A DNA stretch of 61,396 bases from a virus, in the IMG/VR virus record IMGVR_UViG_3300034121_001426, positions 1 through 61,396 of that record. One strand, given 5' to 3'. Positions within the stretch are counted from its first letter, which is position 1. Each line of letters opens with the position of its first letter. Below, in pieces: positions 18,268-61,396 of this stretch. Under the pieces are notes generated by a model that was not told the origin of the DNA, searched no databases, and saw nothing but the letters and a program-made list of their open reading frames with translations. A program made the translations under genes and the position numbers.

Positions 18268-18302
18268 AGCAGGTCCATCCGATCGATGGCTGAGTTTCTA
18301 TC

Positions 18303-21981: not shown

Positions 21982-24045
21982 TCATTTGCTGGTGGCTCGG
22001 TATATTCCGTCCCAATCCTGGGGCAGATCCTGTGAGTTCATGTGCTGACATCTTTCAATCCAGATTTGATAATATAGATCCATTTGTTGATCAAATTCGC
22101 CCATGAGTTGATCACACATTTCCCTAGCTTGTGTAAATTTTTGATTTCTATACAAGTGCATCATGAGATTGTGTTTGTTTCGGGCCAGATGATATTGAGG
22201 CATGTGTTGCCTGGGAGTCTTAAGCAAGGGCGTATAAATGTTCAGTCCCACAGTTTTGCCTTTGACTGCAATGCAATCCAGTTCCAGACAAAAGAAATCA
22301 TCTTTGACTGCCTGGTAGGTATCAGGCCCCAGAATCACCAGAACTCCATACCCCTTGGTTTGACTTTCCAGTCTGCTGGCCACACTCACTGGATCACCCA
22401 GCACATCATATCCCATCTTACCCTGGCTGCCAATGTTGCCCACCAATATTTTGCCAGTGTTGACTCCTGCGCCCATGCCCACTTGAGGCTTGCCACTGGC
22501 TACAAGTTTTTGATTGAACTGGTGCACAGCTTGTATCATTTCAATTGTGGTTTTCACAGCATGATAGGCATGTCTTTGATCATCCAAGGGGGCACCATGA
22601 ATGTGCAAACTGGCATCACCAATAAACTTGATCAGACAACCATTGTTGTCAAACACTGGTTGTGCAATGGCTGTCATGTATTCATTCATGATGGCAGTAA
22701 AGCCTTCCACGTCCTGGTCATATTTTTCTCCCAAGCCAGTGAAGTTTCTCATGTCTGTCATCACTGCTGTGAGCATTTTTTCCTCGCCACCCAATTTTAT
22801 CAGTTCTGGATTTTTCTGCAAGCGTTCCACAATCACAGGACTCACATAACTGCCAAATTGCCGTTTGATCTGTTGTTTGAGAAAGAATTCAGTCAGGAAT
22901 TTCACAACATACACATGCAATCCCACACAAATCAATACCAGTGCAGGAAAGGTGACATCTATCAGGACACTGGCTGTGGCATACAGCCACATGCTGCCAG
23001 AGATACTGCCTGCCAACAACACAATCATGCTAGCTATGCCCACATACAACCATCTGCTCAGCACAATCAGCAATGCTGCTGCTATTATACTCAGGAGTAT
23101 TTCTGCTGCATCAGCATAATCAGGCCTATCAATGGACACTTGGTTGAGCAGTGTGGCAATCACAGTTGCCTGAACATCCTGTGGAAATTTAGCGCCCATG
23201 CTGGTGGCCACTGGATTGGCCACGGCTGTGGCACTGGCGCCCACTATCACAACTGCCCCTTCAAAATCCTCAGGCAGATTCATCATGCTGGCAGTGCGGT
23301 AGCCCTGGCTCCAGTCAATCCAGATCCTGCCCAGACTGTCAGTGTTGATGGGTCCAAAGCGAGGTATTCTCAAGGCTTCAACTCCCTGTGCATTTAGTTT
23401 GACCTGGAATGATCGGTCCAGAGCCAGTATGCGCAAGGTTTCCAAGCTCACATGGGGATAAAGATTTTGATTTATGCTTACAACCAGGGGCACACGACGA
23501 TTTACACCATCCAATTCAGGCAGCTGATTGGCAATGCCCACTGCGGCTGCTGACTGCTCCAATCTGGCTATATTGGCAATGATGCCAGGATAGCCATGAA
23601 TGCGATCCAGGTAATCATCATTTATCACCACTGCCCCTGGTTTCCTGGCTGTGTTTTTGTTGTGATTGCCAGGCACACTCACCAAAATAGTGGGCAACTG
23701 TTTGAGCACCTGTTCTAATTGAACATCCTGTGCCTGTCTGTCCTCTTCACTCATGAGCACACCAAACACAACCAAACCTGCATTTCTTTCATACAACTGT
23801 TGTATTAGATCTGCATACACACCCCTGGCAAATGGCCACTGTCCATGATGATCTATGGCTGCTTCATCTATGTTCACCACCCACAGATTGTTTTGTGTAG
23901 TGGGTTTGCTGGTGATAAGAGTATCAAAATATCTCAATCTCACACTTTCCACAAAACTGGGATCCCAGATTCTCATGCCCAAGAGTAGTGCCAGGGTCAA
24001 CAAACAGCCCAGCACATGAGTGAATATTTTTTTGAGTTTGTTCAT
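21982..24045 (-). CDS. CHASE2-class III adenylate/guanylate cyclase
   Basis: The 687-residue protein has one N-terminal TM, a periplasmic CHASE2 domain (about 40-310; 'VVNIDEAAIDHHGQWPFARG'), three TM segments (about 330-400) and a class III cyclase domain (about 440-620). Cyclase landmarks are 'AVMTDMRNFTGL' (metal Asp 1), 'KFIGDASLHIHGAP' (metal Asp 2), 'GVNTGKILVGNIGS' and 'YDVLGDPVSVASRLES'. The usual M-A-V/F-F/W before GAP is replaced by L-H-I-H. Its start overlaps the PA14/curlin gene by four bases. It probably turns an envelope signal into cAMP or cGMP. Confidence 0.92.
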   Translation of the reverse strand: MNKLKKIFTHVLGCLLTLALLLGMRIWDPSFVESVRLRYFDTLITSKPTTQNNLWVVNIDEAAIDHHGQWPFARGVYADLIQQLYERNAGLVVFGVLMSEEDRQAQDVQLEQVLKQLPTILVSVPGNHNKNTARKPGAVVINDDYLDRIHGYPGIIANIARLEQSAAAVGIANQLPELDGVNRRVPLVVSINQNLYPHVSLETLRILALDRSFQVKLNAQGVEALRIPRFGPINTDSLGRIWIDWSQGYRTASMMNLPEDFEGAVVIVGASATAVANPVATSMGAKFPQDVQATVIATLLNQVSIDRPDYADAAEILLSIIAAALLIVLSRWLYVGIASMIVLLAGSISGSMWLYATASVLIDVTFPALVLICVGLHVYVVKFLTEFFLKQQIKRQFGSYVSPVIVERLQKNPELIKLGGEEKMLTAVMTDMRNFTGLGEKYDQDVEGFTAIMNEYMTAIAQPVFDNNGCLIKFIGDASLHIHGAPLDDQRHAYHAVKTTIEMIQAVHQFNQKLVASGKPQVGMGAGVNTGKILVGNIGSQGKMGYDVLGDPVSVASRLESQTKGYGVLVILGPDTYQAVKDDFFCLELDCIAVKGKTVGLNIYTPLLKTPRQHMPQYHLARNKHNLMMHLYRNQKFTQAREMCDQLMGEFDQQMDLYYQIWIERCQHMNSQDLPQDWDGIYRATSK

Positions 24046-25304
24046 TGATTGATCCTCACTGCGCAACCAGCCAACACAATACAGGTTTGCTGTATTTCTA
24101 TGTTTTGGCTGGTACTGCTGGTTTGATTGAGTTCTATGGTGACGGCGCCACCATTGTTCACAGCTTGCACCCTGGCAGCATGAGGCATGTTGCCACTTTG
24201 GGTGACTGTGATGTTGTTGAGGCCACCTTGTGCTTGACTGTCCAAATAATGAGTTCCATTGCCAGTTTGTTGCAAGGCCACGATGTTACTGTCACCATTT
24301 AGGGTCTGGAACGCAGTTTTGGTGCCATCTTGAGTTTGACTGATTCTCACTGTGTTGTTGCTGCCTGTGACTGTGGTTTCCGCATAATGACCACTGTTGG
24401 TTTGACCCTGATTGTTCTGCAAAACTGTATGCATATTGTTGTTGCCAGTTGTGCTGGTTCTGGCATAATGTCCGCCGCTGTCAGATGCCAATGCTTGCCC
24501 AGCAGACGTGGTGCCCTGCAACACCTGCACCTGATTGCTGTTGCCAGTGATGTGCAGATCCACTCGTTTCGCTGTGGCACCATTTTGCAGGATGGTCACT
24601 GTGTTGCTGTCTCCATTGATCACAGCATTTTGATCTGTGGTGCCTCTCACCAAGTTGTTGCCTGCCATTTGTTCAATGTGAACCATGTTGTTGCTGCCCA
24701 GTTGACTCACATACACTCCTGAAGATTGCAGGGATTGTTCTTGTTTTCTTGTGAGTATTCTCACTGATTGTTCAGTTGTGGGTTTCACAGGACTCACAGT
24801 GCTCCAGGCACTGCTGGGCACAATCACAATGCCACTGCCAATGTTCCAGTTCAATTGCATGACTGCACCTCCACCATTCTCATACCACCATATTTCCACT
24901 GGATAATATTGTCCGCCCTGCAGAGTGATGGTGCCTGACCCATTGTAATAGCTGGGCCCCTGCTCTTGCCAGTTGTTGATCACCACACTGTTGTTGACGG
25001 TGAGATGGAATCCGTCATCAGATCTATCATAAAAAGTCACTGATTGTGCTCCAGCACCAGGCCAAAGCACATATCCTGTGATGTGAATGATTACTCTGTC
25101 GGTTCTGCCACTGTTGAGAATGCTGCCTCCACCAAAATCATAATTGAGTGTGGGAAGGGTACCTGAAGCCAATTGCGCAGTGCATGTGGTGCATCTGCTG
25201 GGAGTGGCACCAGTGCCTGCATAAATCACATAATTTAATCCAGCATCTGCTGATGCACAGTCTGGAAACACCAACAACACAAGGAATATTATCAAAAACT
25301 TCAT
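24042..25304 (-). CDS. Exported PA14-like plus curlin-repeat protein
   Basis: The 420-residue protein has a signal peptide (about 1-19), a PA14-like beta-sandwich (about 40-175; 'YDRSDDGFHLTVNNSVVINN', 'YYPVEIWWYENGGGAVMQLN') and a C-terminal half rich in curlin-type units such as 'GDSNTVTILQNG' and 'GNSNQVQVLQG'. It could serve as a minor curlin or nucleator (CsgB-like) carrying a glycan-binding head. It overlaps the FecR gene upstream and the cyclase gene downstream by four bases each. Confidence 0.82.
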   Translation of the reverse strand: MKFLIIFLVLLVFPDCASADAGLNYVIYAGTGATPSRCTTCTAQLASGTLPTLNYDFGGGSILNSGRTDRVIIHITGYVLWPGAGAQSVTFYDRSDDGFHLTVNNSVVINNWQEQGPSYYNGSGTITLQGGQYYPVEIWWYENGGGAVMQLNWNIGSGIVIVPSSAWSTVSPVKPTTEQSVRILTRKQEQSLQSSGVYVSQLGSNNMVHIEQMAGNNLVRGTTDQNAVINGDSNTVTILQNGATAKRVDLHITGNSNQVQVLQGTTSAGQALASDSGGHYARTSTTGNNNMHTVLQNNQGQTNSGHYAETTVTGSNNTVRISQTQDGTKTAFQTLNGDSNIVALQQTGNGTHYLDSQAQGGLNNITVTQSGNMPHAARVQAVNNGGAVTIELNQTSSTSQNIEIQQTCIVLAGCAVRINQ

Positions 25305-26302
25305 GGACTTTGTCTTATGATAAATGTGTTTCCGCCCACAGTGCCCACCTGTGTGGTGGCATTGTCACCATTGTGACTGATGGTGACATTTCCTGTGCTG
25401 CCATCCAAAAATCTCACAAAACTTTGTCCATATCCAGGTGTGGCTCTGCTGGCTGTGGTGGCGCCGGTGGCGGTGGTTTCCACCACAATAGGCACCGCTG
25501 TGCTTTTGTTCACAACTGATTCTTTCATTATCAGTTGTGAGGGCACATCAGAAGTATTGGGATTGTGCACAGGTTTGCTGGAAACCACAAGGGCATCCTG
25601 GTTAGCTTCTTGAGAACCAGACGCTGAGGATTTGGCTAATCCTTTCAATCCTGGTGGGGGAACAACAATCATGAGATTGTTTATATTACTTTCCGAGACC
25701 TGAATTCTGCTGGGAGGTGTTGGCGGAGTGTGGGCATTGGTAACTGTGGTTGCTGTAAATGGCTGGTCCAGTTCCACCATACCTGCTGGATTGCTCACTT
25801 GTATTTTGCCTGTTCTGCAAACACCAGCCTGATCACAACTGGGAACCAATACAACAAAACTTTCTCCTGATTCAGCCACAGTCATGAAAAAATCTGTGCC
25901 TCTCACAGCAATACTGGCTGTGGGAGTTTGTAAATCCACTTTCTGCTGATTGATTTTGGCTATCTGGCCACTGGCATATCTCACTGTGCCCATGCCCACT
26001 CTGAGAGTGACTTTGCTGTTGTCTCCTTGTCTGGGATCATACACATATTCATCAATAACCAATCTGCTCTGCTCAGTGATGCTGATCTTGGTGTTGTCCA
26101 CAAACCTGAGTTTGGCGCTGCCGTTTTGAGTGACAATCACATCCATGTTGGCCAGGGATGTGTTCACAGCAGCTTCCAGCAAATTACCAGATCTCTCGAT
26201 GTTGCCAGGAGATCCAGTAATTTCTGTTATATTTCCAATGGGATTAGCACTAGCAGCAAAACCTATTACAACAAATGCTAGAGCAGCTAGCAAAAGTTGC
26301 AT
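25301..26302 (-). CDS. Exported FecR-domain protein with curlin-like C-terminus
   Basis: The 333-residue protein has a signal peptide (about 1-19) and a FecR domain (about 25-145; 'VIVTQNGSAKLRFVDNTKIS', 'TPTASIAVRGTDFFMTV'). A Pro/Ser-rich linker follows, and the C-terminus 'GNVTISHNGDNATTQVG' resembles a curlin repeat. FecR domains of this kind, linked to CHASE2 cyclases in bacterial operons, are periplasmic sensors. The curlin-like tail suggests it may meet or co-assemble with the secreted fibre. Tightly coupled to its neighbours. Confidence 0.85.
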   Translation of the reverse strand: MQLLLAALAFVVIGFAASANPIGNITEITGSPGNIERSGNLLEAAVNTSLANMDVIVTQNGSAKLRFVDNTKISITEQSRLVIDEYVYDPRQGDNSKVTLRVGMGTVRYASGQIAKINQQKVDLQTPTASIAVRGTDFFMTVAESGESFVVLVPSCDQAGVCRTGKIQVSNPAGMVELDQPFTATTVTNAHTPPTPPSRIQVSESNINNLMIVVPPPGLKGLAKSSASGSQEANQDALVVSSKPVHNPNTSDVPSQLIMKESVVNKSTAVPIVVETTATGATTASRATPGYGQSFVRFLDGSTGNVTISHNGDNATTQVGTVGGNTFIIRQSP

Positions 26303-26306
26303 GATA

Positions 26307-26987
26307 TCAGTTGCCGGTTCTTACAGTAAATGTATTACTGGTTCCATTCACATTCAAGTTTACAGTTGTTGCATTGCTGCCTGATTGCACAGTTGTAATA
26401 TTGTTGCTGCTGCCTGTGATGTTCATGGCCAGAATATGACCAGTTCCAGCAACACCAGCTAGTGTGTTTGTGACAGTGTTGTTGTCACCATTCAGTGTGG
26501 CAGCAACATTGGCATTGCTGCTTTCCACAACAGTGGTGATTGCGTTGGTGTTGCCAGTCACCACTGTATTGGTTCTATTGGCAGTGCCAATCACAGTGGT
26601 GCTGATCATGTTGGCATTGCCTGTGATGGTTTCTGTTATGCTGCTGTTGCTGCAACTGCCAGTGGCAGTGACACCAATACCACCACATTTGGTTGTGGTT
26701 GTGTTGCTGTTGCCGTTGACGGTGCTAGTATATGTGTTGGTATCACCTACAACAGCATATTGTGCCTGGTTGGTGGTGCCAGTCTGTCTCACAGTGATGG
26801 TGGCGCTGTTGCCTGACACACTGCTGGCCCTGTCAGTGCCAGAGCCCACCTTGTTGGCTGTGCCCACTTGTTCGATTGTTGTGGTTGAATTGTTACCCAG
26901 TTGATCCAGATAAACTTCATTTGCCTCACTGGTGCTGGCAATCATACAAACACCCATGAGGGCCAGTAGTATAGCAGTTTTATTCAT
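26307..26987 (-). CDS. csgA: Curlin-like amyloid fibre subunit (CsgA-like)
   Basis: The 226-residue protein has a signal peptide (about 1-22) followed by 'VYLDQLGNNSTTTIEQVG' and 'GNSATITVRQTGTTNQ', the N-x(5)-Q-x-G-x-x-N curlin pattern. About eight further degenerate units rich in Asn, Thr and Ser follow. Charged residues are rare. In bacteria such subunits are exported unfolded through CsgG and polymerise into surface amyloid. The start overlaps the csgG stop by four bases. Later units lose the Gln, so amyloid formation is expected but not certain. Confidence 0.82.
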   Translation of the reverse strand: MNKTAILLALMGVCMIASTSEANEVYLDQLGNNSTTTIEQVGTANKVGSGTDRASSVSGNSATITVRQTGTTNQAQYAVVGDTNTYTSTVNGNSNTTTTKCGGIGVTATGSCSNSSITETITGNANMISTTVIGTANRTNTVVTGNTNAITTVVESSNANVAATLNGDNNTVTNTLAGVAGTGHILAMNITGSSNNITTVQSGSNATTVNLNVNGTSNTFTVRTGN

Positions 26988-27814
26988 TTGATTGCTCCTT
27001 GAATTCGTGTGTCAAAATCCCAATGACCTTTGTTGGCACCCTCTTTTATCAATTGAATCACAGCAGCTTCAATGGCAATTTGTATGGCCTGATTGCGACT
27101 TTCGTTTATGCTGGCTCCAATTTCCGCCTCCACAGCTCGGGTACCCGCATCTATGAATCTCAACACACCAGCATTGTCCATGTAACTCATGATGGTTTTG
27201 GTGACTGTGACATTCACCAAAACTTCTCCGCTGCTGGTGCTCACTGCTCGCAAATTGATGGTGACTGTGTCCTGTCTGTACTGAGTATTGCCTCCAATAC
27301 CCAAAAATCTTGCACCCATTCCACCTGTTTGAGTGTTGTTGTCATACCCTATGATTCCACCTTCCATGAGCAAGCCTGCAAACAACAGTGGAGGCACAGG
27401 CTGTGCATTGGCTCCCTGGTAGAGTTCTCTCATCTGACGGATCAGTTGTCTTTCCTTGATCAAACTTTCAATGCCCACACGTTCAATCACCCTGAACCAT
27501 CTACGGTTGCCCACCTCTGTGAGAGCTTGCATGAGATAGGCTTCGGCTCCCTGAGTAACAGCACTGCTGAAGCTGGCAACTCCTAGAGTATCTTTGCGTT
27601 GACCAGTTTTGTCCTGAAAATTATACACAGCCACAGTGATGGGACCACCTCTGGGTGGCAACAGTTGATTTTCATTGAGAGAATAAAATTTACTACTGCT
27701 GATAGCAGGAGGTTTGGTAATGTCGTGATCAGTTACTGTGGCAATTGTAGCTACAGTTGCACATGCAGAAATCCAGGGTAATACAATAGCCAATTTGATC
27801 CATGATTTTGCCAT
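26984..27814 (-). CDS. csgG: Curli secretion pore lipoprotein CsgG
   Basis: The 276-residue protein has a lipoprotein signal ending 'PWISACAT' (acyl Cys about residue 18) and the CsgG core: 'PPRGGPITVAVYNFQDKTGQ', 'RWFRVIERVGIESLIKERQL' and 'DTVTINLRAVSTSSGEVLVN'. CsgG forms the nonameric outer-membrane channel for curli subunits. Length matches the bacterial family (about 277 aa). It starts directly after csgF with no gap. No key region appears missing. Confidence 0.93.
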   Translation of the reverse strand: MAKSWIKLAIVLPWISACATVATIATVTDHDITKPPAISSSKFYSLNENQLLPPRGGPITVAVYNFQDKTGQRKDTLGVASFSSAVTQGAEAYLMQALTEVGNRRWFRVIERVGIESLIKERQLIRQMRELYQGANAQPVPPLLFAGLLMEGGIIGYDNNTQTGGMGARFLGIGGNTQYRQDTVTINLRAVSTSSGEVLVNVTVTKTIMSYMDNAGVLRFIDAGTRAVEAEIGASINESRNQAIQIAIEAAVIQLIKEGANKGHWDFDTRIQGAIK

Positions 27815-28255
27815 TCAAAATGCAATACTCCCAATGGGAAGGATAACCCGGGTGGTACTACCATAGGTATCCACAACTGTGAGATTTATGTCATTGCCCA
27901 CTCTTGCATAGGCAATCACATTGCCGCCCAAGCTGATACTGCCACTGTTGCTGGGATTTTCACCAAAAATTGCCTCGCTGAGCCTTTTGGCCAATTGCTG
28001 ATAAACTATACTTTGCAAATTGCCCACAAATTGGTTTACAGGATTGGTGAGTCTGGCTCTTTCCTGAGCTGCCAATTCCTGTGCCTGTTTGTCTTTTTGC
28101 TTTTGCTGGCCCTGGATCTGCAATTGCTCAATAGTCAGCACATGGCTGCTATAGCCTACACCTGTGAAGCTGGGACTATTGAAACTGTGTACCAGTTCAC
28201 CTGCCTGAGCAGCACTGGTGATCACAAGGGCTAGAATATAAACCCACAGTCGCAT
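27815..28255 (-). CDS. csgF: Curli assembly factor CsgF
   Basis: The 146-residue protein has a signal peptide (about 1-18) and mature N-terminus 'GELVHSFNSPSFTG', the segment of CsgF that inserts into the CsgG barrel, then a helical 'NPVNQFVGNLQSIVYQQLAK' region and a beta-rich C-terminus. CsgF caps CsgG and couples secretion to nucleation. It is the first gene of the operon, with AAGGA before the ATG at 28255. No CsgE gene is visible in the window. Confidence 0.88.
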   Translation of the reverse strand: MRLWVYILALVITSAAQAGELVHSFNSPSFTGVGYSSHVLTIEQLQIQGQQKQKDKQAQELAAQERARLTNPVNQFVGNLQSIVYQQLAKRLSEAIFGENPSNSGSISLGGNVIAYARVGNDINLTVVDTYGSTTRVILPIGSIAF

Positions 28256-32156: not shown

Positions 32157-32221
32157 TAAGTGTGCAGTTCGCGGATCTGAACCATCCCAACTGCTCTAAA
32201 CGCTTGAAAGGAGCATTCAGC

Positions 32222-33118
32222 ATGATATATTATATAATATATGAAACTACCAATCAAATCAATGGAAAAAAATATAGAGGCGCACATGTCTGTGAAGACC
32301 TAAATTATGGGTACCTAGGCAGTGGTACTAACCTCAAACAGGCTATGCGCAAATATGGCAAGCATCAATTCTCCAGAGAAATAATATACATGGCCTTTGA
32401 TTATGATGCTATGTGGGCAGCAGAGGCTATATTTGTAGATCAAGACTGGATTAGTAGGCCAGACGTATACAATATAAGTTTGGGCGGAAGAGGATCCAGA
32501 GGATTTCAACGTCAGATAACAGATGAACAGCGCCAACAAAGGTCTCTTGAAGCCAAAGCCAGATGGTTAAGACCAGATTATAGACAAAAGAATTGTGCAT
32601 CACAAAGGAGGAAGGCACCTCCTTCTCCTGAGGCAAGGCTCATCTTGAGCCTTGCCGGCAAGGGTATTGCCAACAGCACAGAACATAATGAGAACATCTC
32701 AAAAGGGCTTAAACAATTGTTCACCAATCCGGATGCACGATTGAAGAGAAGTGAACAGTCAACCAAATGCAATGCAAGGCCGGAAGTAAGGCACAAAATT
32801 GCGCAAGCTTTGACGGGGATAAAAAGAAGTGACGCAACAAGACAGAAGAGTAGATCAGCAGCTCAAAAGAGAGTTCAAAATCCCGAATACCTGGAGGCAC
32901 AACGTATATCACAAACCAAGAGGTGGCAAGAATGTCCTGCCACCTGGTGGAACAATGGAATCAAAAACATCCGTAGTGTGGATAAACCAGGAGAGGAGTT
33001 TCAACCAGGTCGCATATCCTTTGGTACTTGGTGGACTAACGGTCAAAAAAGTGTCATGAGTATAGAATGTCCGGGAGATGGTTGGTCTCCCGGACGCAGG
33101 ATAAACAAGGGTATTTGA
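32222..33118 (+). CDS. GIY-YIG homing endonuclease (Seg-like), HEG1
   Basis: The 298-residue protein starts 'MIYYIIYETTNQINGKKYRG' (the GIY/YIG strands as IYE...YRG), followed by 'YGYLGSGTNLKQAMRKYGKH' and the Glu-bearing 'AMWAAEAIFVDQDWI'. A basic linker with NUMOD-like repeats ('KIAQALTGIKRSDATRQKSR') leads to two 'WWNNGIKNIRSVDKPG' type C-terminal modules. AAGGAG precedes the ATG. The gene converges on and overlaps the 3' end of the AAA+ ATPase gene by 65 bases, the probable homing target. Confidence 0.85.
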   Translation: MIYYIIYETTNQINGKKYRGAHVCEDLNYGYLGSGTNLKQAMRKYGKHQFSREIIYMAFDYDAMWAAEAIFVDQDWISRPDVYNISLGGRGSRGFQRQITDEQRQQRSLEAKARWLRPDYRQKNCASQRRKAPPSPEARLILSLAGKGIANSTEHNENISKGLKQLFTNPDARLKRSEQSTKCNARPEVRHKIAQALTGIKRSDATRQKSRSAAQKRVQNPEYLEAQRISQTKRWQECPATWWNNGIKNIRSVDKPGEEFQPGRISFGTWWTNGQKSVMSIECPGDGWSPGRRINKGI

Positions 33119-38916: not shown

Positions 38917-39915
38917 CTACCAAGGGTTTGGATCGTTGCCTTCCAGGTAGCGATCAATAATATATTGTTTCCATTGATCCAATCTCAGGGCCCAATATTC
39001 GCCATTGATGAGAATTTCTCTGCCATCTATCATGGCATTTTCCAGATCGTCTGATCTGGGTTCCAGGTGGTTCATGATAGCCTCATCTGAGAGCAAATCC
39101 TCTTTGGTTTTGTTGAACTCATCTGGTAATTTTAGAGGATTGCCATCGTTGAAATTGTTCTGGATTTCCCAAAACACATCATCATCATAATTGTACCCAC
39201 TGATTTCCTTGCCCAGGGGAGTATCTCGCCATTCCGGCACATTATCCATCAACCAATTTCTCAATGAGATCATGAAATTGTCCTGCCAGCCAGCACCCAC
39301 AAGTGAATCATAACTGCTGAGTATCAAATCCCCGACATTTGTGGTGAGCACATGAACTCCATTCTTGGGAAAAATACAATATATGTGGCTACCATAATTA
39401 CTGGCAAAATCACGACTGGTGGTGGTGAAAATGCTGTTGCTTCTCAGTGCTTGGAAGCCATGGTTTCTCAGAGCTTGATCCAGTCTGTTGCTGATCTCTG
39501 TTCTGCTGTCCTTGGGTGCTCTGTCTTCTCTGCTGCGACCTTCAAAAACACTCACATCTGTTCTCAACCCTCTGTACAACATTTTGCCAGTGACTTTCAT
39601 CACAGGCAGGAAGTCACTGCACTCTCTGTCCAGAATGGCAAACATTCTGGTCATACCGTTGTCAGGACGCAGTTGCATGCGTTGCAAATAGGACACCTTG
39701 AGATCAATGCGTTTCTTGAGTTTTTCCAGACTGTCCTGTAATTGTTGATCTTTCTGGAACATGCTGCTCAAACTTTCGCTGGATGCCAAACTGTCCAGCA
39801 GTTGATCAATTTTATTCTGGATGTCTTGTGCTCTGCGTAGAGATAGATCATCTCTGATTTTTTTCTCGCCAGGCTGCAGGAGAGAGGAGTTTTCCAAAAG
39901 ATCCCATAATTTCAT
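38917..39915 (-). CDS. Putative internal virion protein, ADP-ribosyltransferase-like family, copy 2
   Basis: Starts at 39915 (MKLWDLLENSS). After a coiled-coil region (about 30-95) come 'KMLYRGLRTDVSVFEGRSR', 'RAPKDSRTEISNRLD', 'HGFQALRSNSIFTTTSRDFA' and 'IYCIFPKNGVHVL'. The set R-G, P-K-D-S, S-N-S-I-F and I-F-P is shared with the 29720 protein, and more weakly with its neighbour at 39963. This is the best-preserved member for a test of ART activity. Late box just upstream. Confidence 0.6.
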   Translation of the reverse strand: MKLWDLLENSSLLQPGEKKIRDDLSLRRAQDIQNKIDQLLDSLASSESLSSMFQKDQQLQDSLEKLKKRIDLKVSYLQRMQLRPDNGMTRMFAILDRECSDFLPVMKVTGKMLYRGLRTDVSVFEGRSREDRAPKDSRTEISNRLDQALRNHGFQALRSNSIFTTTSRDFASNYGSHIYCIFPKNGVHVLTTNVGDLILSSYDSLVGAGWQDNFMISLRNWLMDNVPEWRDTPLGKEISGYNYDDDVFWEIQNNFNDGNPLKLPDEFNKTKEDLLSDEAIMNHLEPRSDDLENAMIDGREILINGEYWALRLDQWKQYIIDRYLEGNDPNPW

Positions 39916-39940
39916 TTTAAATTGCACCGCATGTTTGAAT

Positions 39941-39962: not shown

Positions 39963-40955
39963 TCAATCTTGGTTATAGATAAATGATTGTTCCAAAAACG
40001 TATTCCAAAGATCATACCTGAATGCCCAATATTCACCTCTGATGCGACACGTTTTGGAGGAAACAGTAAATTGATGGGCACTCAGTTGCTGTGGGTCAAA
40101 GGTGTTTATTATGGCCTGATCATTAATAAAATCAGTCAGGCTCTTGTCGAATTGTGGAGGGATCTTCCAACGATTACCTCTATAGGAGAATTCCATTTTC
40201 AATTGGTGAAAAATTTCTAGATAATTCTGTGCTTTGACAGCATTTCCTAGATCGTTATATCCTGATTCAGGGGTGTGGGATTTGACCCAAATTTTCAAGT
40301 CAAGAACGAATTCATCCAATTCTGACCGATCTGCAAAATTTCCCATAGTCAAGGGGAGATTGTTGTATTGGAGTATTTGGAATCCATTTTTGGGAAAAAT
40401 CACATAAGTGATGCCCCCAGCCCTCCTTGGATCCCACTGGTCTGTGGTGACCCACATGCTGTTGGTGAGGAAAGCAGTGTAACCTGAATTCTTGAGAGCT
40501 TGATCAAATGTTTGTGTGATTTCTGGAAAGTTAATTTTATCTGGTACAAGGTATTCCGCTTCTGGCTGCGCATGTGCGTCAAACACTGAATCTTGTTGTT
40601 GGATACTGGTATACAGTAGACGGTGGTTTTCCTTGATCAAATTGATCCACTCACTGCATTCCTGTTGCAGTATGGGTATGATTTTCTTTTGGCCCTGAGT
40701 GGGCTTATCACCCATTTTATGCAGGTAGGAAATTTTCAAATTGATTCGATTGATTAGTTTTTCCAACGCTGTTTGAAGTGCAGTGTCTTGTTGAAATCTG
40801 TCCTTGAGAATTACACTATCGTTAAATGCCTTGTTCAATTTACGTATTTTATCCAGTATTGCAGTCAAATCTCTAGTGGTGATGTCAGTTCTGGTGCGTT
40901 TTGCACCAGGTGGCATTGGTTGATCGAACGATTGTTCAAATAGATCTAGTAATTT
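39963..40955 (-). CDS. Putative internal virion protein, diverged copy 3 of the family
   Basis: Starts at 40955 (MKLLDLFEQSFDQP). It shares with copy 2 the N-terminal motif, the helical region and 'QALKNSGYTAFLTNSMWVTT', 'ITYVIFPKNGFQIL'. The Arg-Gly strand has become 'LLYTSIQQQ' and S-N-S-I-F has become T-N-S-M-W, so predicted transferase residues are lost. It may be a structural or inactive paralogue produced by tandem duplication with 38917. Confidence 0.6.
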   Translation of the reverse strand, partial: KLLDLFEQSFDQPMPPGAKRTRTDITTRDLTAILDKIRKLNKAFNDSVILKDRFQQDTALQTALEKLINRINLKISYLHKMGDKPTQGQKKIIPILQQECSEWINLIKENHRLLYTSIQQQDSVFDAHAQPEAEYLVPDKINFPEITQTFDQALKNSGYTAFLTNSMWVTTDQWDPRRAGGITYVIFPKNGFQILQYNNLPLTMGNFADRSELDEFVLDLKIWVKSHTPESGYNDLGNAVKAQNYLEIFHQLKMEFSYRGNRWKIPPQFDKSLTDFINDQAIINTFDPQQLSAHQFTVSSKTCRIRGEYWAFRYDLWNTFLEQSFIYNQD

Positions 40956-40985
40956 CATTGGCATCAATTCCAATAACTGTTTGGT

Positions 40986-42159: not shown

Positions 42160-42240
42160 CTACTTGCTGTTCACTGCGATGGCTGTGACACTGTTGAAGG
42201 GGCTGCCATCAAGCAGCTTGGTGCTCCACACAAGGTAGAC
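42160..42240 (-). pseudogene. Orphaned original 3' end of creA
   Basis: On the minus strand this segment reads 'VYLVWSTKLLDGSPFNSVTA' then 'IAVNSK' and a stop, matching the end of the intact creA gene ('VYLVWSTKLIDGSPFNSVTA') 0.8 kb away, but with quite different codons. It has no start and no 5' part. HEG2 separates the two copies. Confidence 0.85.
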
Positions 42241-42244
42241 CTGG

Positions 42245-42252
42245 TATAAATA
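42245..42252 (+). promoter_or_regulatory. Perfect T4 late promoter TATAAATA before HEG2
   Basis: TATAAATA lies 43 bases upstream of the HEG2 ATG at 42296. Confidence 0.65.
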
Positions 42253-42295: not shown

Positions 42296-43024
42296 ATGTT
42301 CCTGCAGAACAAATATACTAAATGGTATTTCAATATTGTGAATAATGCTCAAGGTCGCAATAGATCAGATCTTGCATTGCCCATGGAACGACATCACATT
42401 ATACCAGATTGTATGCATCTGAATAGAAGACGCCACGGACCACCAGGGACTGTTCGGGGAAATCCAAATAACCCCAACAATTTAGTTTATCTAACCATTA
42501 AAGAACACTTCTTATGCCACTGGCTATTGACTAAAATGGTTGATTCACAATATCTCAGACCGATGCATTATGCACTCCATAGGATGACATTTTGTCGTAG
42601 ATCTAATACCAGGCTCATTGCAGGCTGGCAGGTCTGTAAAGCTAGAACGGCGATTCTTGCAGCAACAGTTGGACGCTCTCTATCAGAGGAAACAAAAAAG
42701 AAGATTAGCGCCTCCAAGATTGGTAAACGCAAAGGTCTTAAGCAATCACCAGATCATGTTCAAAAAAGAGCTAACTCTCTTAAAGGAAAGGCTAAATCAG
42801 CAGAACATAAATCGAATATATCTCAATCGAAAATGGGCAAGACATCATATATTCGAACAGATGAGACCAAGGAAAAAAATAGGAAATCCAGGATTGGAGC
42901 GGCAAAAGATTACAAATGGTGGAATGACGGAACTAAATCTACCTTATGTCCCGTTTGTCCAGGAGATGGGTGGAGTCAAGGACGATTTAAGGCGATTTCA
43001 AAGGAACTGCGGTTACCGAATTAA
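42296..43024 (+). CDS. HNH homing endonuclease with NUMOD3 repeats, HEG2
   Basis: The 242-residue protein has an HNH core: 'MERHHIIPDCMHLNRRRHGP', then 'NNPNNLVYLTIKEHFLCHWL'. NUMOD3-type repeats follow ('LSEETKKKISASKIGKRKG', 'KSAEHKSNISQSKMGKT') and the C-terminal module 'YKWWNDGTKSTLCPVCPGDG'. AAAGGAG precedes the ATG. Its last 38 bases overlap the 3' end of creA on the other strand, and the displaced creA end lies on its 5' side, so creA is the probable homing target. Confidence 0.88.
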   Translation: MFLQNKYTKWYFNIVNNAQGRNRSDLALPMERHHIIPDCMHLNRRRHGPPGTVRGNPNNPNNLVYLTIKEHFLCHWLLTKMVDSQYLRPMHYALHRMTFCRRSNTRLIAGWQVCKARTAILAATVGRSLSEETKKKISASKIGKRKGLKQSPDHVQKRANSLKGKAKSAEHKSNISQSKMGKTSYIRTDETKEKNRKSRIGAAKDYKWWNDGTKSTLCPVCPGDGWSQGRFKAISKELRLPN

Positions 43025-43451
43025 ATGGACTCCCATCTATCAGCTTGGTAGACCAGACCAAATACACTAACGATTTGCGGTCAGGGTCCCAAAACCTGCT
43101 CACTCTCATGGTTTTGAACAAGAAGCTGGTTTTCTCTGTGAAGATCACTTCACCCTTGCGGCTGCGATCAATTTCACCTTTGATCTTGATCTCACCAGTT
43201 GCACGGCAGGCAATACTGAAGCGGCTGGGATCTTCAGCAATGCCCAGTGCACCTGTGATGCCACCAGTTTCTGCACGGCTGATATAACAACTGACTCCAT
43301 CCACCTTGGGATCGTCAAACCGTTCCACAACCACCCTATCACCACTGCCCAGTATGCGCCAGGTGGTGGTTACTTCACCCACTTGCGTTTGGGCCAAGGC
43401 TGTGGTTGCAGCACACGCCAGAGCTGCAATAGCCAAAAACATGTTTTTCAT
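42987..43451 (-). CDS. creA: CreA family exported protein with replaced 3' end
   Basis: The 154-residue protein has a signal peptide (about 1-20, ending 'ALAQ') and the CreA pattern: 'GSGDRVVVERFDDPKVDGVS', 'CYISRAETGGITGALGIAED' and 'PSRFSIACRATGEIKIKG'. CreA is a periplasmic protein of unclear function. From about 43080 onward the codons change (TCG TTA GTG TAT TTG) relative to the 5' part, and a second, native-looking copy of the same end lies beyond HEG2. The gene is intact in frame. Confidence 0.88.
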   Translation of the reverse strand: MKNMFLAIAALACAATTALAQTQVGEVTTTWRILGSGDRVVVERFDDPKVDGVSCYISRAETGGITGALGIAEDPSRFSIACRATGEIKIKGEIDRSRKGEVIFTEKTSFLFKTMRVSRFWDPDRKSLVYLVWSTKLIDGSPFNSVTAVPLKSP

Positions 43452-47007: not shown

Positions 47008-47454
47008 CTATTCACACACAAAAGTCTGCAGATCAGTGGTGTAAATCACCCTGGGAATAGAAAAATCCAGGATACACTTCTGGCATCCCTTGCAGGGACG
47101 ACTCATGCCCAGAACCCAGCTCTTGCTGGTTTCACTGGGCCTCTTGATGCGCAACACATAAAGAGTGCTCTTGGCAAGGTCCTGAGGCACACGCCTCTTG
47201 AGAAAGTTGTAGATGGCATGGGTTTCTGCATGCCAAAACAGGCTGTCATTGTTTTTCCCAAATTTATGCTGAAAAGGATGGGATCTCAGACTGTTGTTGC
47301 CAAAACTGATAATGTTTCCTCGAATGGCCACAGCAGCAGCCAGCCTGGCATTGGCTACAGGTGTGACATCTTCTGCCATTGTGTGCAGAATATTCATGAT
47401 CTTAATGTCTCGATCAGTTACCGGCGCTACCGGCGCGATCGCTGCGGGATCCAT
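47008..47454 (-). CDS. Zinc-dependent (deoxy)cytidylate deaminase-family protein
   Basis: The 148-residue protein has the deaminase zinc motifs 'FWHAETHAIYNFLK' (H-A-E) and 'MSRPCKGCQKCILDF' (P-C-x-x-C). Substrate could be dCMP, cytidine or another base; the spacing and 'GNNSLRSHPF' segment are typical of phage family members. Together with dUTPase this would feed thymidylate synthesis. The ATG at 47454 lacks a strong ribosome site. Confidence 0.8.
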   Translation of the reverse strand: MDPAAIAPVAPVTDRDIKIMNILHTMAEDVTPVANARLAAAVAIRGNIISFGNNSLRSHPFQHKFGKNNDSLFWHAETHAIYNFLKRRVPQDLAKSTLYVLRIKRPSETSKSWVLGMSRPCKGCQKCILDFSIPRVIYTTDLQTFVCE

Positions 47455-47568: not shown

Positions 47569-47664
47569 TTATTCCCAGCCTTCGAATAAATTTTCATCCC
47601 ATTCGCGATGCCCTTCACGGAAAGCCATGTTTGATTGAGTTTCCCTCACTTCCACTCTGAAGGC
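47569..47664 (-). pseudogene. Orphaned original 3' end of queD
   Basis: On the minus strand this segment reads 'AFRVEVRETQSNMAFREGHR' then 'EWDENLFEGWE' and a stop. It matches the end of the intact queD ('MVQVRETDANMAMRVGHRED') about 0.9 kb away, with different codons. There is no 5' part. HEG3 lies between the two copies. The rest of the 47455-47730 gap shows only a late box. Confidence 0.85.
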
Positions 47665-47670
47665 TAAATA
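47664..47670 (+). promoter_or_regulatory. Late promoter-like box (CTAAATA) before HEG3
   Basis: GCTAAATAAGG lies 60 bases upstream of the HEG3 ATG and overlaps the queD remnant. Confidence 0.4.
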
Positions 47671-47730
47671 AGGTGTCCTTCGCGGTTCTCCCAAACCCAA
47701 GGACTCTATTAGTAAGAAGGAACCAACAGC

Positions 47731-48432
47731 ATGAATATTTACGCAGATAATCTGCCTTACACCTACTTCCTTATGTGGAAGTCTAGCAAATTAAAATATT
47801 ATGGTTGCCAATATGGCAAGAAGGCTAACCCACAGAATATTCTATCAGGAACCTACCGAACCTCTTCAAAATATGTCAAACAGTATTGGAATGATTTTGG
47901 CGCTCCAGATATAATCGTTATTCACAGAACGTTTCAATCATCTAAAGAATGTAGAGAGTTTGAACAATTATATCTAAAAAGAGTAAGAGCACCCTATAAA
48001 GAAGATTGGCTCAACAAGACAGATAACAAAGCTATAGTAACAGAAAACTATAACCCAGAATCTTGGCAGAAAAGCCATGCTAGTCGAGCAAGACATAGAC
48101 AAGAAGATCCTGAATTCAATAAACTTATGAACGATAGGTTCGTTAAAATGATGCATAGTGAGAGTGCGACCGCCAAGCGTAAGGAAACATTTATCAAAAC
48201 ACAGCACTCTAAAGGAGCCAACAATCCTAGATATGGAGTTACAGTAGGCGAAGATACACGTAAGAAGATGTCTATCAAGCGAAAGTCTCAATATGAATTC
48301 AATGTTTTAAGATCAAAAGATCTCAATAAGACTAATAAAGTCTGTGAACATTGTGGTAAATCAGGACTCAATGCAGGGAACTATAAAAGATGGCATGGAT
48401 CTAAATGCCCTAAAAAACCAACATGTGTCTGA
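47731..48432 (+). CDS. GIY-YIG-like homing endonuclease, HEG3
   Basis: The 233-residue protein begins with 'YTYFLMWKSSKLKYYGCQYG' and 'ILSGTYRTSSKYVKQYWNDF', followed by 'KECREFEQLYLKRV', a layout resembling phage GIY-YIG-type free-standing endonucleases. A basic middle leads to a C-terminal Cys4-like finger ('VCEHCGKSGLNAGNY...C'). AAGGA precedes the ATG. It converges on queD, whose displaced 3' end lies on its 5' side. Confidence 0.72.
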   Translation: MNIYADNLPYTYFLMWKSSKLKYYGCQYGKKANPQNILSGTYRTSSKYVKQYWNDFGAPDIIVIHRTFQSSKECREFEQLYLKRVRAPYKEDWLNKTDNKAIVTENYNPESWQKSHASRARHRQEDPEFNKLMNDRFVKMMHSESATAKRKETFIKTQHSKGANNPRYGVTVGEDTRKKMSIKRKSQYEFNVLRSKDLNKTNKVCEHCGKSGLNAGNYKRWHGSKCPKKPTCV

Positions 48433-48434
48433 TT

Positions 48435-48465
48435 GTTTAGGGGGTAGTAATACTACCCCCTAAAC
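48435..48465. terminator. Bidirectional terminator between HEG3 and queD
   Basis: A perfect 15-bp inverted repeat (gtttagggggtagta/tactaccccctaaac) with a single-base loop separates the two convergent genes. Confidence 0.75.
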
Positions 48466-48468
48466 AAA

Positions 48469-48951
48469 TTATGAGAATAAATCCTCGTTATCCTCTCTAT
48501 GGCCTACTCTCATAGCCATATTTGCATCAGTCTCGCGAACTTGAACCATGCTGCACCAAATTCTTTCGGCTTCTGCTGCACCATATTGAGGCAAGAACAC
48601 TCCATTTATATATTTGTATAGGAAATCAGCAATCCCCTCACAACCAGTGCGCTCAACTTCTGTAATTTTGGCTAGCCCTAATTCTCCTAGCTTTTTCATG
48701 TCTTCGTAGTGAGGATCATCAAAAGCCAATAAGAGAGTATGATCGAACCATTCCTCGAGTTTGTCCTTCAAAGGGCGAAGTCCACCAAAATCCATGCACC
48801 AGTTACGTGCATCCAATGTATCGCATTCAAATTCCAAATGAAAGCTGAGGGAATAACCATGTATAAAACGACAGAGGCTATCTGCCCGCCATTGACGATA
48901 CGCTACTGGTCCAATTTGTCTATAAGTTTTTGTGCTAATCCATTTCGCCAT
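48469..48951 (-). CDS. queD: 6-carboxytetrahydropterin synthase (QueD/PTPS family)
   Basis: The start at 48951 (MAKWISTKTYRQIGPVAYRQ) follows AGGGGACAAGAG. Family motifs are 'FIHGYSLSFHLEFEC' (zinc His residues), 'DARNWCMDFGGLRPLKDKLE', 'WFDHTLLLAFDD' and 'ERTGCEGIADFLYKY'. The enzyme makes the precursor of 7-deazaguanines, used for queuosine in tRNA or, in several phages, to modify DNA guanines. No other pathway genes appear in this window. The 3' end appears imported with HEG3. Confidence 0.85.
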   Translation of the reverse strand: MAKWISTKTYRQIGPVAYRQWRADSLCRFIHGYSLSFHLEFECDTLDARNWCMDFGGLRPLKDKLEEWFDHTLLLAFDDPHYEDMKKLGELGLAKITEVERTGCEGIADFLYKYINGVFLPQYGAAEAERIWCSMVQVRETDANMAMRVGHREDNEDLFS

Positions 48952-49065
48952 CTCTTGTCCCCTGTTGTATGAGCGAGTTTGATGACTGTGCAGAATTTTT
49001 AGAGTGGGTTGATTACAGTCATAGTCCACTGGCAATATTTACAACTATACCCATCAATCATCCTG

Positions 49066-51942: not shown

Positions 51943-51969
51943 TTAATCTGTCCTCTTGTTCATATGCTC

Positions 51970-51997
51970 ATGATAGCATAAGATCCCAGTTTGTCAA
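51970..51997 (-). promoter_or_regulatory. Sigma70-type promoter (TTGACA-16-TATCAT)
   Basis: TTGACA (51997-51992) and TATCAT (51975-51970) precede the gene at 51942. About 230 bp away lies an almost identical promoter with the same spacer. Confidence 0.7.
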
Positions 51998-52006
51998 CCA
52001 GTTTTT

Positions 52007-52171
52007 TCAATCCATTTTGCCCCAGGTAACCTTGGACACTCCAAAAAGGATCATCTCTACACACATGCTCTTGTAGATGGCTTGGGCCACTGCTTTGGTG
52101 ACACATTCACGGCGCACGGTTCCACCACCGTCCAGGAACTCAATCTGGTAAAAATATTCACCCTTGGTCAC
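52007..52171 (-). CDS. Small protein, 54 aa
   Basis: A GTG start at 52171 with GGAG upstream. The product MTKGEYFYQIEFLDGGGTVR... then 'ECVTKAVAQAIYKSMCVEM' is a small alpha/beta domain. It lies between two near-identical promoters. Unknown function. Confidence 0.55.
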   Translation of the reverse strand: MTKGEYFYQIEFLDGGGTVRRECVTKAVAQAIYKSMCVEMILFGVSKVTWGKMD

Positions 52172-52200
52172 AGCATGCTTCTCCGCTGTTATGTTGAGTC

Positions 52201-52228
52201 ATAATAGCATTAGATCCCAGTTTGTCAA
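52201..52228 (-). promoter_or_regulatory. Sigma70-type promoter (TTGACA-16-TATTAT)
   Basis: TTGACA (52228-52223) and TATTAT (52206-52201) face the small gene at 52171; the spacer nearly duplicates that of 51970-51997. Confidence 0.7.
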
Positions 52229-52806
52229 CCAGTTTTTTTACAAAGTTTGCGCACTGTGTCCACCAACAGTGGATGTTCTTGCTCCAAAACTCTTGCTGCA
52301 AGGGTGTTGGGTGTATCATGTTCCCAAATGGGAACTCTTGCCTGTGCTAGGATCTCACCAGCATCCAGCTCTGCTGTGACCCAGTGTATGGTGCATCCAT
52401 GTTCCTGATCGCCTGCCGCCAGTGCTCTCTCATGTGTGTGCAATCCAGGATACAGGGGCAACAAGCTAGGGTGTATGTTGATGATCCTGTTTTGCCACTG
52501 ATTTACAAAATCTGCTGTGAGGATTCTCATGTATCCTGCCAGCACCACAAATTCCACCTGGTGCATGAGCAATGCCTTGTGAATGTGCTGTTCCTGTATA
52601 TGTCTACGGCCCTTGTAGTTCTTGTCATCAAAAACCAACACTGGAATGTTGAGATTCTCAGCTATTTTCAAACCAGCAGCATCTGCACAGTTGCTGATCA
52701 CCACAACTGTTTGGGTGGGATAGCTACTATCCTGTTCAGCTTGTAGCAGTGCTTGCATGTTGCTGCCTCTGCCACTGATAAAAATTGCTGTGCGTGTTTT
52801 GTTCAT
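52225..52806 (-). CDS. purN: Phosphoribosylglycinamide formyltransferase
   Basis: The 193-residue enzyme has 'ISGRGSNMQALLQAE' (GAR-binding loop), 'NIHPSLLPLYPG' (catalytic Asn-x-His) and 'CTIHWVTAELDAGEILAQ' (catalytic Asp), all in place. It transfers a formyl group from 10-formyl-THF to GAR in purine synthesis. It overlaps pyrG by four bases and is the last gene of the purM-pyrG-purN operon. Confidence 0.95.
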   Translation of the reverse strand: MNKTRTAIFISGRGSNMQALLQAEQDSSYPTQTVVVISNCADAAGLKIAENLNIPVLVFDDKNYKGRRHIQEQHIHKALLMHQVEFVVLAGYMRILTADFVNQWQNRIINIHPSLLPLYPGLHTHERALAAGDQEHGCTIHWVTAELDAGEILAQARVPIWEHDTPNTLAARVLEQEHPLLVDTVRKLCKKTG

Positions 52807-57822: not shown

Positions 57823-58251
57823 TCAACCCCACGCAAGTAGGAATTGAGCGGCTACATCGTCATCCCAGGGACAGGCCACACCCAGTGATCTCATCCAGGA
57901 TTTAATTTCATCGGTCATGTTCTTGCCATGCAGCCACCACTCCTGCGATCCATCTGCATGTATCACAGCAGGCCCATCCAATCGATGTAGTTGGCCATCA
58001 ACATGCCACTCCTGCGATCCATCTGCATATATCACAGCAGGCCCATCCAATCGATGTAGTTGGCCATCAACATACCACTCCTGCAATCCATCTGCATATA
58101 TCACAGCAGGCCCATCCAATCGATGTAGTTGGCCATCAACATGCCATCTTTGCGTGCCATCTGCATCTATATGCCGACCGACCTGCGGCGTGATCCCCTT
58201 GCTAGGGATACAGTGATTTGTTGAACAAATTGTTAACCCTGATAGGAACAT
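57823..58251 (-). CDS. WYVDG-repeat protein, copy 2
   Basis: Four tandem ~23-residue units of the type 'GQLHRLDGPAVIYADGSQEW' are followed by a unique C-terminal domain ('MTDEIKSWMRSLGVACPWDD') ending 'FLLAWG'. The DNA repeats are almost identical to each other. An in-frame ATG at 58251 is used here, but the better ribosome site (AGGAG) serves an ATG a few bases upstream whose frame stops quickly, so the 5' end may be damaged. The right end of the TnpB element lies just upstream. Confidence 0.6.
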   Translation of the reverse strand: MFLSGLTICSTNHCIPSKGITPQVGRHIDADGTQRWHVDGQLHRLDGPAVIYADGLQEWYVDGQLHRLDGPAVIYADGSQEWHVDGQLHRLDGPAVIHADGSQEWWLHGKNMTDEIKSWMRSLGVACPWDDDVAAQFLLAWG

Positions 58252-58288: not shown

Positions 58289-59612
58289 TCTCTCAATAAA
58301 GTCAACCGGTGAACTACTGTTGGTCTAAAGACCAACAGCTTCCTGCTTCATTTGTGACTGAGATACATGGCCCTAATTGTCCATCATATCCCAAGTCACA
58401 TCCACGGGCGCTTGAGGCAGTTCCTGCCTTGCATGATCTATGTTCCATTGTTGTAGTCCCCAGTTCTTGATATTCATGGCCGCATTGATATCTCTGTGCT
58501 GCGTAACGCCACAAGATTCACAATGATATTCTCTTTGCTTCAAATCCAGTGATGATTTCTTGGTACCACATGAGCTGCATGTTTTGCTACTGGGTAGCCA
58601 CTGATTGATTTTGGTGAAGTGATGGCCTGATAGCTCACACTTGTAGGCAATCGAGTTGGCCAGCATTGCCCATCCGGCATCTGCTATACACTTGGCGGCA
58701 TATTTGCTCTTCTTCCTCATCTCATCAATTTTCAGTGTTTCAACTGACACCAGGTCATGCGATTTGGCTATTCTCGCACTGATCTGGTGTATATGGTTTA
58801 ATCTTTGGCAACGAACCAGATCATGAGTTCGTGCCAGTTTTAATTTTGCTTTGGTTCTGTTCTTGCTTGACTTGGCTTTTCTGCTCAACTTGCGTTGTTG
58901 ATGTTTGATGTGTTTGCGCTTTTTGGCAAGTGGCCTTGGGTTCTCAATCAGTGCCCCTGTGCTGAGTGCAGTGTATTGTGAGTTGACATCCACTCCCACT
59001 GGGTTCTGCACTTGATCTACCAATGGCAGTTCTGCCACATCAACCACAAAACTTGCATACCAACCACGTGGTGTTTGGGTAATAGTTACGCATTGATATT
59101 TCGCAGGTAATTCCCTGTGCAACACAATTCGAACAATACCTATCTTGGGTAATCTCAAATACCTGTTGTTGTCCACTAGATTGGTGTGTTGTTGATATCT
59201 AAATGATATGGGAGTAGTATATTTGCTCTTGAACTTGGGGAATCCAGCACTGGTTTTCTTCATATTTTTCCAATGCAGTATCCAAGTCCTTGATGCTGCT
59301 CTGCAACACCTGACTGTAGGTGTCTTTCAACCAAATGTGTTGTTTTTTCAGATCAGTCAGCTGTTTGCACATGTCAAACTGCCACACAAATGTTTTGTCT
59401 TGGTTGTATTGATCTATGTTTACCTTGAGAAAGTGGTTGTATAGGAATCGAACTGCACCACCCACAGACGTCATCTGTTGTTCTTGTTGCAGGGTAGGAT
59501 AAATCCTGTAGCGATATCTCTGCTTCATTTGTGCGATTATGTATGCCACTCGCTATCCATCTGTTGGCTTAAAAGCCAACAGACTTCCGCTCGAAAGTTA
59601 AAGCATGAATGC
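58289..59612 (-). mobile_element. TnpB-only insertion element (IS200/IS605-type, no tnpA)
   Basis: The left end (59551-59612) contains the CTGTTGGCTT/AAGCCAACAG hairpin and ATGGATAGCG; the tnpB frame follows. The right end carries GAAGCAGGAAG, a perfect 10-bp CTGTTGGTCT/AGACCAACAG hairpin (58317-58338) and GTAGTTCAC. No Y1 transposase is present, so it would move only in trans. The right end plus the 3' of tnpB should form the omega-RNA scaffold, with CGGTTGACTTTATTG at the guide position. Confidence 0.75.
58373..59528 (-). pseudogene. tnpB: TnpB RNA-guided nuclease gene with an N-terminal frameshift
   Basis: The N-terminal part (from MKQRYRYRIYPTLQQEQQMT at 59528) and the main part (ending at 58373) are in different frames. 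The join is near 59245-59255, where 'EKYEENQCW' should run into 'FPKFKSKYTTPISFRYQQ', as the relic at 18374 shows. The 3' frame keeps all catalytic features: RuvC-I 'PVGVDVNSQYTALS', RuvC-II 'SVETLKIDEMRKK', zinc finger 'CSSCG...CESCG' and RuvC-III 'HRDINAAMNIKN'. One base change would restore it. A shortened product could start at 59263. Confidence 0.85.
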
Positions 59613-61073: not shown

Positions 61074-61190
61074 ATCCAAGGGCTTGAAATGTTTTTGTTT
61101 TCTCGGATGGTGACATTGGTTGGCTACTGGTAATGGATAACCCACTTCTGCTTGCCATGTGGTTCAACTTCTGTTGCACTCATTGCTACT

Positions 61191-61396
61191 CTAACCCCAG
61201 GTCAGTTGAAATTGAGTCTGGATTGCTGAGTCCCAGGGCCATGTACCATCAATTTTCTGCATCCATGCAACGATTTGATTGGTCATGTTCTTGCCATCAA
61301 CATACCACTCCTGCGATCTATCTGCATGTATCACAGCAGGCCCATCCAATCGATGTAGTTGGCCATCAACATACCACTCCTGCGATCTATCTGCAT
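61191..61396 (-). CDS. WYVDG-repeat protein, copy 3 (5' end outside window)
   Basis: Open to the window edge. Two visible repeat units ('SQEWYVDGQLHRLDGPAVIH') lead into the unique end 'MTNQIVAWMQKIDGTWPWDS' and 'QFQLTWG', closest to copy 1. It is the third member of the family and lies in the duplicated block beside the 60871 pseudogene. Confidence 0.8.
   Translation of the reverse strand, partial: ADRSQEWYVDGQLHRLDGPAVIHADRSQEWYVDGKNMTNQIVAWMQKIDGTWPWDSAIQTQFQLTWG

Follow-up and report, generated by a model that had tools for sequence, protein, structure and literature searches.

How an intact phage gene came to lie on one side of a homing endonuclease gene (HEG) while a second, different version of its 3′ end lies on the other is the question raised by the queD locus of a viral record of 61,396 bases, which was analysed over its whole length and is referred to here as the window. 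On the minus strand, the order from 5′ to 3′ is the queD leader, queD, a palindrome, HEG3 (reversed), the HEG leader, a late-promoter-like box and an orphan queD tail (Table 1). The protein encoded by the intact queD ends in VQVRETDANMAMRVGHREDNEDLFS followed by the stop, and the orphan tail encodes FRVEVRETQSNMAFREGHREWDENLFEGWE, also followed by a stop.

The same structure is found in two other assemblies (L004 and L005), which agree with the window over 8.5 kb, and the queD/HEG3/orphan layout is therefore not an assembly error. The palindrome between the convergent genes is likely a two-way terminator. At its centre L004 and L005 differ, one having AAT and the other ATT, owing to a loop flip or to an assembly effect. 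Among GenBank phages, no near DNA match to positions 40000-61396 of the window was found.

Table 1. Positions of the features discussed, in window coordinates.
Feature	Position	Strand	Evidence and remarks
Intact queD, subfamily A	48469-48951	minus	Pfam PTPS 2e-14; 6-pyruvoyl tetrahydropterin/carboxytetrahydropterin synthase family
queD leader, ~98 nt	48952-49049	minus	Conserved 5′ of queD-A and of some queD-B
Perfect palindrome	48433-48467	none	Between the convergent stops of queD and HEG3; fold -26 kcal/mol (50-nt stretch)
HEG3, free-standing homing endonuclease gene	47731-48432	plus	GIY-YIG-like N-terminus, NUMOD3 motif, CxxC...C zinc-like end
HEG3 5′ leader RNA, two-part hairpin	47673-47710	plus	Covarying; common to many phage HEGs
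GCTAAATA, resembling the T4-type late promoter box TATAAATA	47663-47670	plus	Abuts the orphan; in the aligned place in L087, L183 and other HEG leaders
Orphan queD tail, subfamily B	47569-47661	minus	From codon F of WC(F)RVEVRET to its own stop
dCMP/cytidine deaminase-like gene, downstream flank	47008-47454	minus	Pfam PF00383; syntenic in L006 and L293
Intact creA	42987-43451	minus	Pfam CreA 1.2e-53
HEG2, HNH-like	42296-43024	plus	phrog_655 6e-27, AHH 0.007
Orphan creA tail	42160-42240	minus	77% amino acid and 58% nucleotide identity to the intact creA tail

Several other features of the window were observed. Curli-type secretion genes are present in this viral record at 24045-28255 (minus strand; CsgF 1.7e-17, CsgG 2.5e-52), together with a repeat protein that is CsgA-like in look and then FecR and PA14 proteins. 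They are adjoined by a gene at 21985-24042 (minus) for a CHASE2 sensor with an adenylate/guanylate cyclase domain. TnpB/OrfB-IS605-like genes, apparently in pieces, are located at 58373-59549 and ~18374-18730 (both minus), and further repeats at 17917-18288, 57823-58170 and 61184-61396. A 40-bp direct repeat (51968-52007 and 52199-52238, 95% identical) lies near the 3′ end of a purN-like gene, and tandem paralogues of 336 aa are encoded at 38917-39927 and 39963-40973 (minus), with no Pfam match for the one tested.

The orphan tail and the two queD subfamilies

Over 24 codons, the orphan and the intact queD tail are 62.5% identical in protein and 61% identical in DNA, with many synonymous differences; in a tblastn search against related loci the two tails match at ~4e-6. 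This confirms the initial annotation in its description of an intact queD, HEG3 and a fragment beyond it with different codons and its own stop. A pattern scan for the orphan core returned 120 viral stretches, nearly all of them full-length queD genes, in which the tail reads RLWC(Y/F)RVEVRETQ(S/A)NMA(F/Y)REGHREWNEDLF. Genes with such an orphan-like tail are called type B here, and genes resembling the intact queD of the window are called type A. Over the same 24 codons, the orphan has a mean amino acid identity of 89% (maximum 96%) to 107 B tails and of 64% to 83 A tails, and the intact queD tail has means of 78% to A tails and 71% to B tails. At the nucleotide level, the orphan is up to 84.5% identical over 71 nt to the intact queD-B tails of other phages, and this homology stops at the start of the HEG leader. 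In a maximum-likelihood tree of 34 full-length queD proteins, the split between A and B has support of 100/95 or better, and the window queD groups with those of L006 and L007 (100/97) inside A. A search of GenBank phages with queD-B tails gave just three weak records.

By these alignments and the tree, the orphan is a tail from another phage queD subfamily (B) and is well preserved, and the intact queD belongs to subfamily A. As its open frame and B-type residues have been kept, the orphan was probably under selection at the protein level until recently. The possibility that it is a duplicate or recoded copy of the intact tail was rejected, since it belongs to the other subfamily, and so was that of a decayed pseudogene, since its frame and residues match those of live queD-B genes. 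Simple insertion of the HEG at the 3′ end of this queD, or duplication or recoding of that end, as proposed in the initial annotation, is thus not sustained, and the view taken there of the orphan as a displaced older piece holds. Because the orphan comes from a different subfamily, it was the whole gene that would have been replaced, not the tail alone.

A related observation was made in L007 (~4470-4500), where a one-base shift of frame separates the end of queD from a former LFEGWE stop (CTTTTTTGAAGGTTGGGAATAA), an ending that the window orphan shares. The shift is likely due to the recent insertion of one base.

HEG-free relatives and the proposed replacement of the resident queD

Comparison of queD 3′ ends with those of HEG-free relatives, put forward earlier as a check, assigned the orphan to B and the intact gene to A. 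HEG3 is missing from the matching site in two related genomes, L006 and L293. In L293 (71 kb), a complete queD-B is resident at this site and the gene order is as in the window: queD, the deaminase, a 380-residue protein, a 140-residue protein, ClpX and IF3. In L006 (65 kb), queD-A is followed by the deaminase, the 380-residue protein, ClpX and IF3, without HEG and without orphan. The amino acid identities of the window proteins to those of L006 and L293, respectively, are 67% and 57% for IF3, 67% and 68% for ClpX, 44% and 44% for p381, 51% and 61% for the deaminase, and 89% and 51% for queD. The flanking proteins are thus about as distant from one phage as from the other, and queD is an identity outlier compared with them, indicating that it moved separately and has its own history.

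The borders of the moved segment can be seen in the nucleotide alignments. The match to L006 covers 48468-49049, i.e., from the leader (~49049) through the queD stop, and that to L007 and L008 covers 48481-49044; upstream of 49050, identity drops from ~0.8 to 0.5. The leader has also been observed at queD-B loci, with 81% identity over 64 nt in L254 and 75% over 96 nt in L201. Since it also precedes some B genes, it could act as a left arm in an exchange of A for B, and on this pattern of conservation it is likely the left recombination arm.

Intact queD genes with a displaced B tail are found in two other phages, which are unrelated. In L183, the intact queD belongs to the L087 type and has behind it a convergent GIY-YIG HEG (~30% identical to HEG3), two small ORFs and an orphan B tail. 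Together with the DNA downstream of it, this orphan matches L172 at 95% identity over 1.06 kb and L178 at 97% over 252 bp, and neither of these has a HEG there; L178 has an intact queD-B, and L172 has the 3′ part of a queD-B cut by the contig end. Judged from these matches, the orphan of L183 is in its native place and the upstream queD is new, which is the clearest evidence of direction. In L270, a HEG-like ORF, named by its N-terminus and position and having no family match, lies upstream of an intact queD, and an orphan B tail follows queD. The breakpoints of the three orphans lie within ~5 codons of each other, around ERLWC-FR (the hyphen marking the break). Among 204 queD loci, two tails are present solely in the window phage, L183 and L270, and none of the loci has two intact queD genes.

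These findings make it probable that intronless homing replaced a resident queD-B with a cassette of leader, queD-A and HEG3, leaving the queD-B 3′ end behind. HEG3 or a close forebear would have cut the resident queD-B near the codons of ERLWC-FRVEVRET. The donor would then have served as template for repair on the 5′ side of the break, the left arm being the conserved queD leader; this repair would have brought in a queD-A that is divergent at the cut region and presumably uncuttable, with HEG3 behind it. The 3′ side would have been joined near the cut, so that the last ~30 codons of queD-B were left behind HEG3, and the intact queD-A would retain function. The VRET motif of QueD/PTPS proteins contains a conserved Glu that anchors the pterin, and a break there would therefore kill the gene unless a working copy arrived with it. 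For the window's own lineage, we infer the same direction of transfer, A for B.

The same final order could also result from a tandem history, in which queD-A and queD-B stood side by side, HEG3 was inserted between them and queD-B was deleted down to its tail, the end of the deletion being free to lie anywhere. However, no tandem pair exists in the 204 queD loci (a whole-gene tandem duplication of queD was rejected on this count of zero), the orphan is undecayed with a full frame and 89% amino acid identity to live genes, and a near-identical relative of L183 has queD-B alone. Random deletion does not predict a near-identical breakpoint in three independent cases, and this history is considered quite unlikely. 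The initial annotation had held that a separate queD-like gene, duplicated before HEG3 arrived, would argue against its model; the orphan does derive from a separate queD, which was apparently a lost resident and not an earlier duplicate alongside the intact gene.

Ordinary phage recombination at the conserved borders of queD, with HEG3 as a non-cutting passenger, is also unlikely. In its favour are the mosaic nature of phage genomes, a leader and a VRET region with enough conservation for recombination, and the queD block that L006 and L007 have in common without HEG3. On the other hand, a HEG adjoins the swapped gene in all three orphan cases, the HEG proteins being unrelated, and recombination in the conserved tail predicts a single hybrid gene where a full gene and a leftover tail are observed.

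Under the homing account, L006, with queD-A and neither HEG nor orphan, must be a donor-like lineage or the product of a loss or a separate swap. L086 and L087 have a relative of HEG3 (59%) in the same convergent position after an A-side queD; its HEG leader is conserved and an orphan is missing. The HEG and the A-side queD therefore seem to be transferred as a pair. An exact donor from the window's clade, with queD-A and HEG3 and no orphan, was not found, L087 being a more distant match.

The model in its strict original form, in which the HEG carried a recoded 3′ end and replaced only the resident tail, as for fungal mitochondrial atp6, is very unlikely for queD. Fungal mitochondrial HEG insertions have been described in this way (PMC3630166), and the creA of the window could fit it, given the identities of its two tails (Table 1). 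In queD, however, the body of the gene also belongs to subfamily A, with B found in the orphan only, and the block of high identity with L006 and L007 already starts in the leader. Replacement of the whole gene by homing remains the preferred explanation.

HEG3, its promoter box and its leader RNA

HEG3 matches two PHROG families, phrog_655 (homing endonuclease, 4.6e-5) and phrog_27406, and its NUMOD3 match (5.6e-4, 20.2 bits) is just under the cut-off of 20.4 bits. HEG3 itself has no Pfam GIY-YIG match; its PY-Y...YYG...E pattern aligns with the L183 HEG, in which the Pfam GIY-YIG domain is above the cut-off. A search of the PDB with the HEG profile gave nothing useful. HEG3 is thus classified, by motif and alignment, as a putative GIY-YIG-like nuclease. 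Other HEG-like ORFs near queD, each with a leader RNA, were observed in L007 (5261-6220), L051 (2544-3179) and L271 (4509-5078), and queD seems to be a HEG hot spot.

HEG3 has its own candidate late promoter and a leader hairpin, a trait seen among free-standing phage HEGs. The leader RNA consists of a 6-bp stem, CGC, a 4-bp stem and then UCUAA, and is present on both GIY-YIG- and HNH-type HEGs. It is also found before HEG1 of the window (32162-32200, plus strand), in L183 (5320-5357), in L087 (3942-3979), and in further loci including L095, L104, L105, L113, L117, L122, L124, L127, L129, L191 and L221. A covariance model built from four leaders gave 21 matches in 82 loci, which had been chosen mostly for their HEGs, and a rebuilt model gave 5 matches in ~1.6 Mb of queD loci. 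Apart from one in L229, the examined matches lie ~3-30 nt before a GIY-YIG or HNH HEG-like ORF, and most of these sit right behind a TATAAATA-like box. In the alignment of 20 distinct sequences, 97.5% of the cells pair and two-sided changes occur in 9 of the 10 pairs. The covariation score is 0.82 versus 0.23 for shuffled sequences, in an alignment that was fitted to the model, which favours the score. Rfam gave no gathering-level match in the window, and at the leader only a weak match on the opposite strand. The leader may represent a new RNA family.

The creA parallel and known homing systems

A second case of this arrangement is present in the window at creA and HEG2 (Table 1). As was claimed from the sequence at first, the two cases agree in gene order and orientation and their HEGs belong to different families, HEG3 being GIY-YIG-like with NUMOD3 and HEG2 HNH-like. 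The claimed agreement in spacing did not stand, as HEG2 and the 3′ end of creA share 38 bp, and HEG3 and queD are separated by 36 bp containing the palindrome. Beside the creA orphan, an exact TATAAATA box is located at 42245-42252, and, at queD as at creA, the orphan and the late-promoter-like box of the HEG are no more than a few bases apart. A HEG2-free creA comparator was sought in L293, L006, L007 and L087 and none was found, and comparison with bacterial CreA tails did not distinguish the resident creA copy from the foreign one.

HEG, intact gene and displaced tail do form one arrangement, recurring at queD in L183 and L270 and at creA in the window. The term "general insertion strategy" used at first is too strong: a scan of 54 other HNH-HEG loci for flanking tail repeats gave one weak match, at a locus where the HEG match is partial and the repeat may fall inside the HEG, and 105 controls gave none. 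The displaced-tail layout is therefore uncommon among related HEGs. HEG1 (~32180-33118), convergent with an AAA ATPase gene, has no orphan tail in a self-comparison of the window.

Elements of the proposed event are known from other systems. In T4, co-conversion of neighbouring sequence during homing has been established, and I-TevI represses itself by way of an operator resembling its homing site and overlapping its late promoter (PMC2988022). The T4 Seg endonucleases (SegF/gene 56, SegE and SegG) are encoded by free-standing GIY-YIG HEGs that adjoin their target genes, as HEG3 would; they cut the HEG-less relative, and the neighbouring gene is replaced by the donor allele, resulting in localized marker exclusion. 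The sections of that paper drawn on here mention no leftover 3′ tail of a replaced gene (PMC2988022). In the window, in contrast to the Seg cases, two deeply diverged subfamilies would have been exchanged, a tail is kept behind the HEG, and the HEG is oriented opposite to its target. A late promoter and leader hairpin occur in several, not all, T4 HEGs, and HEG3 has candidate versions of both.

Fungal mobile ORFs have been described in atp6 of Allomyces, in atp6, atp9, cox2 and nad3 of Glomus, in atp9 of Rhizopus and in cox2 of Mortierella (PMC3630166). There too, a foreign C-terminus is in use on one side of the HEG and the displaced native C-terminus lies on the other, with strong synonymous divergence between the two, but the C-terminal part alone is foreign and the HEG reads with the gene (PMC3630166). 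In the window, which is that of a phage, the whole queD appears swapped with no hybrid gene, and the HEG is convergent. In ICP1-like phages, HEG islands occur and HEGs lie at the borders of allele exchange, but the words orphan and remnant are absent from that paper, and no displaced tails are described in the parts of it used here (PMC10448857). In the synthetic home-and-rescue drives called HomeR, a cutter of an essential gene likewise travels with an uncuttable working copy; this is an engineered Cas9 system (PMC7968924), and its resemblance to the window is one of logic only.

It is a tentative idea, more doubtful than the replacement itself, that these loci represent a recurrent, natural home-and-rescue element in phages, in which a HEG travels with a complete divergent copy of its target. 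In a further round of homing, the retained tail of the victim would provide the right homology arm; lying beside the late promoter of the HEG, it might also form half of an operator at which the HEG represses itself, in the manner of the I-TevI operator. Different nuclease families would then have arrived at the same layout, at queD in three phages and at creA. In the open-licence literature searched, no report of displaced tails beside phage HEGs was found, and within that literature the displaced-tail form seems unreported in phages, its outline being known from T4 marker exclusion and fungal mitochondrial HEGs.

If queD was replaced as proposed, a HEG would be able to swap an entire functional gene for a distant version, leaving a scar that names the victim allele. 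From such scars, past homing events, likely cut sites and victim alleles may be read from genome sequence without knowledge of the enzyme. The displaced queD tail would in this way connect marker exclusion in T4 with the C-terminus displacement seen in fungal mitochondria and with the principle behind engineered rescue drives.
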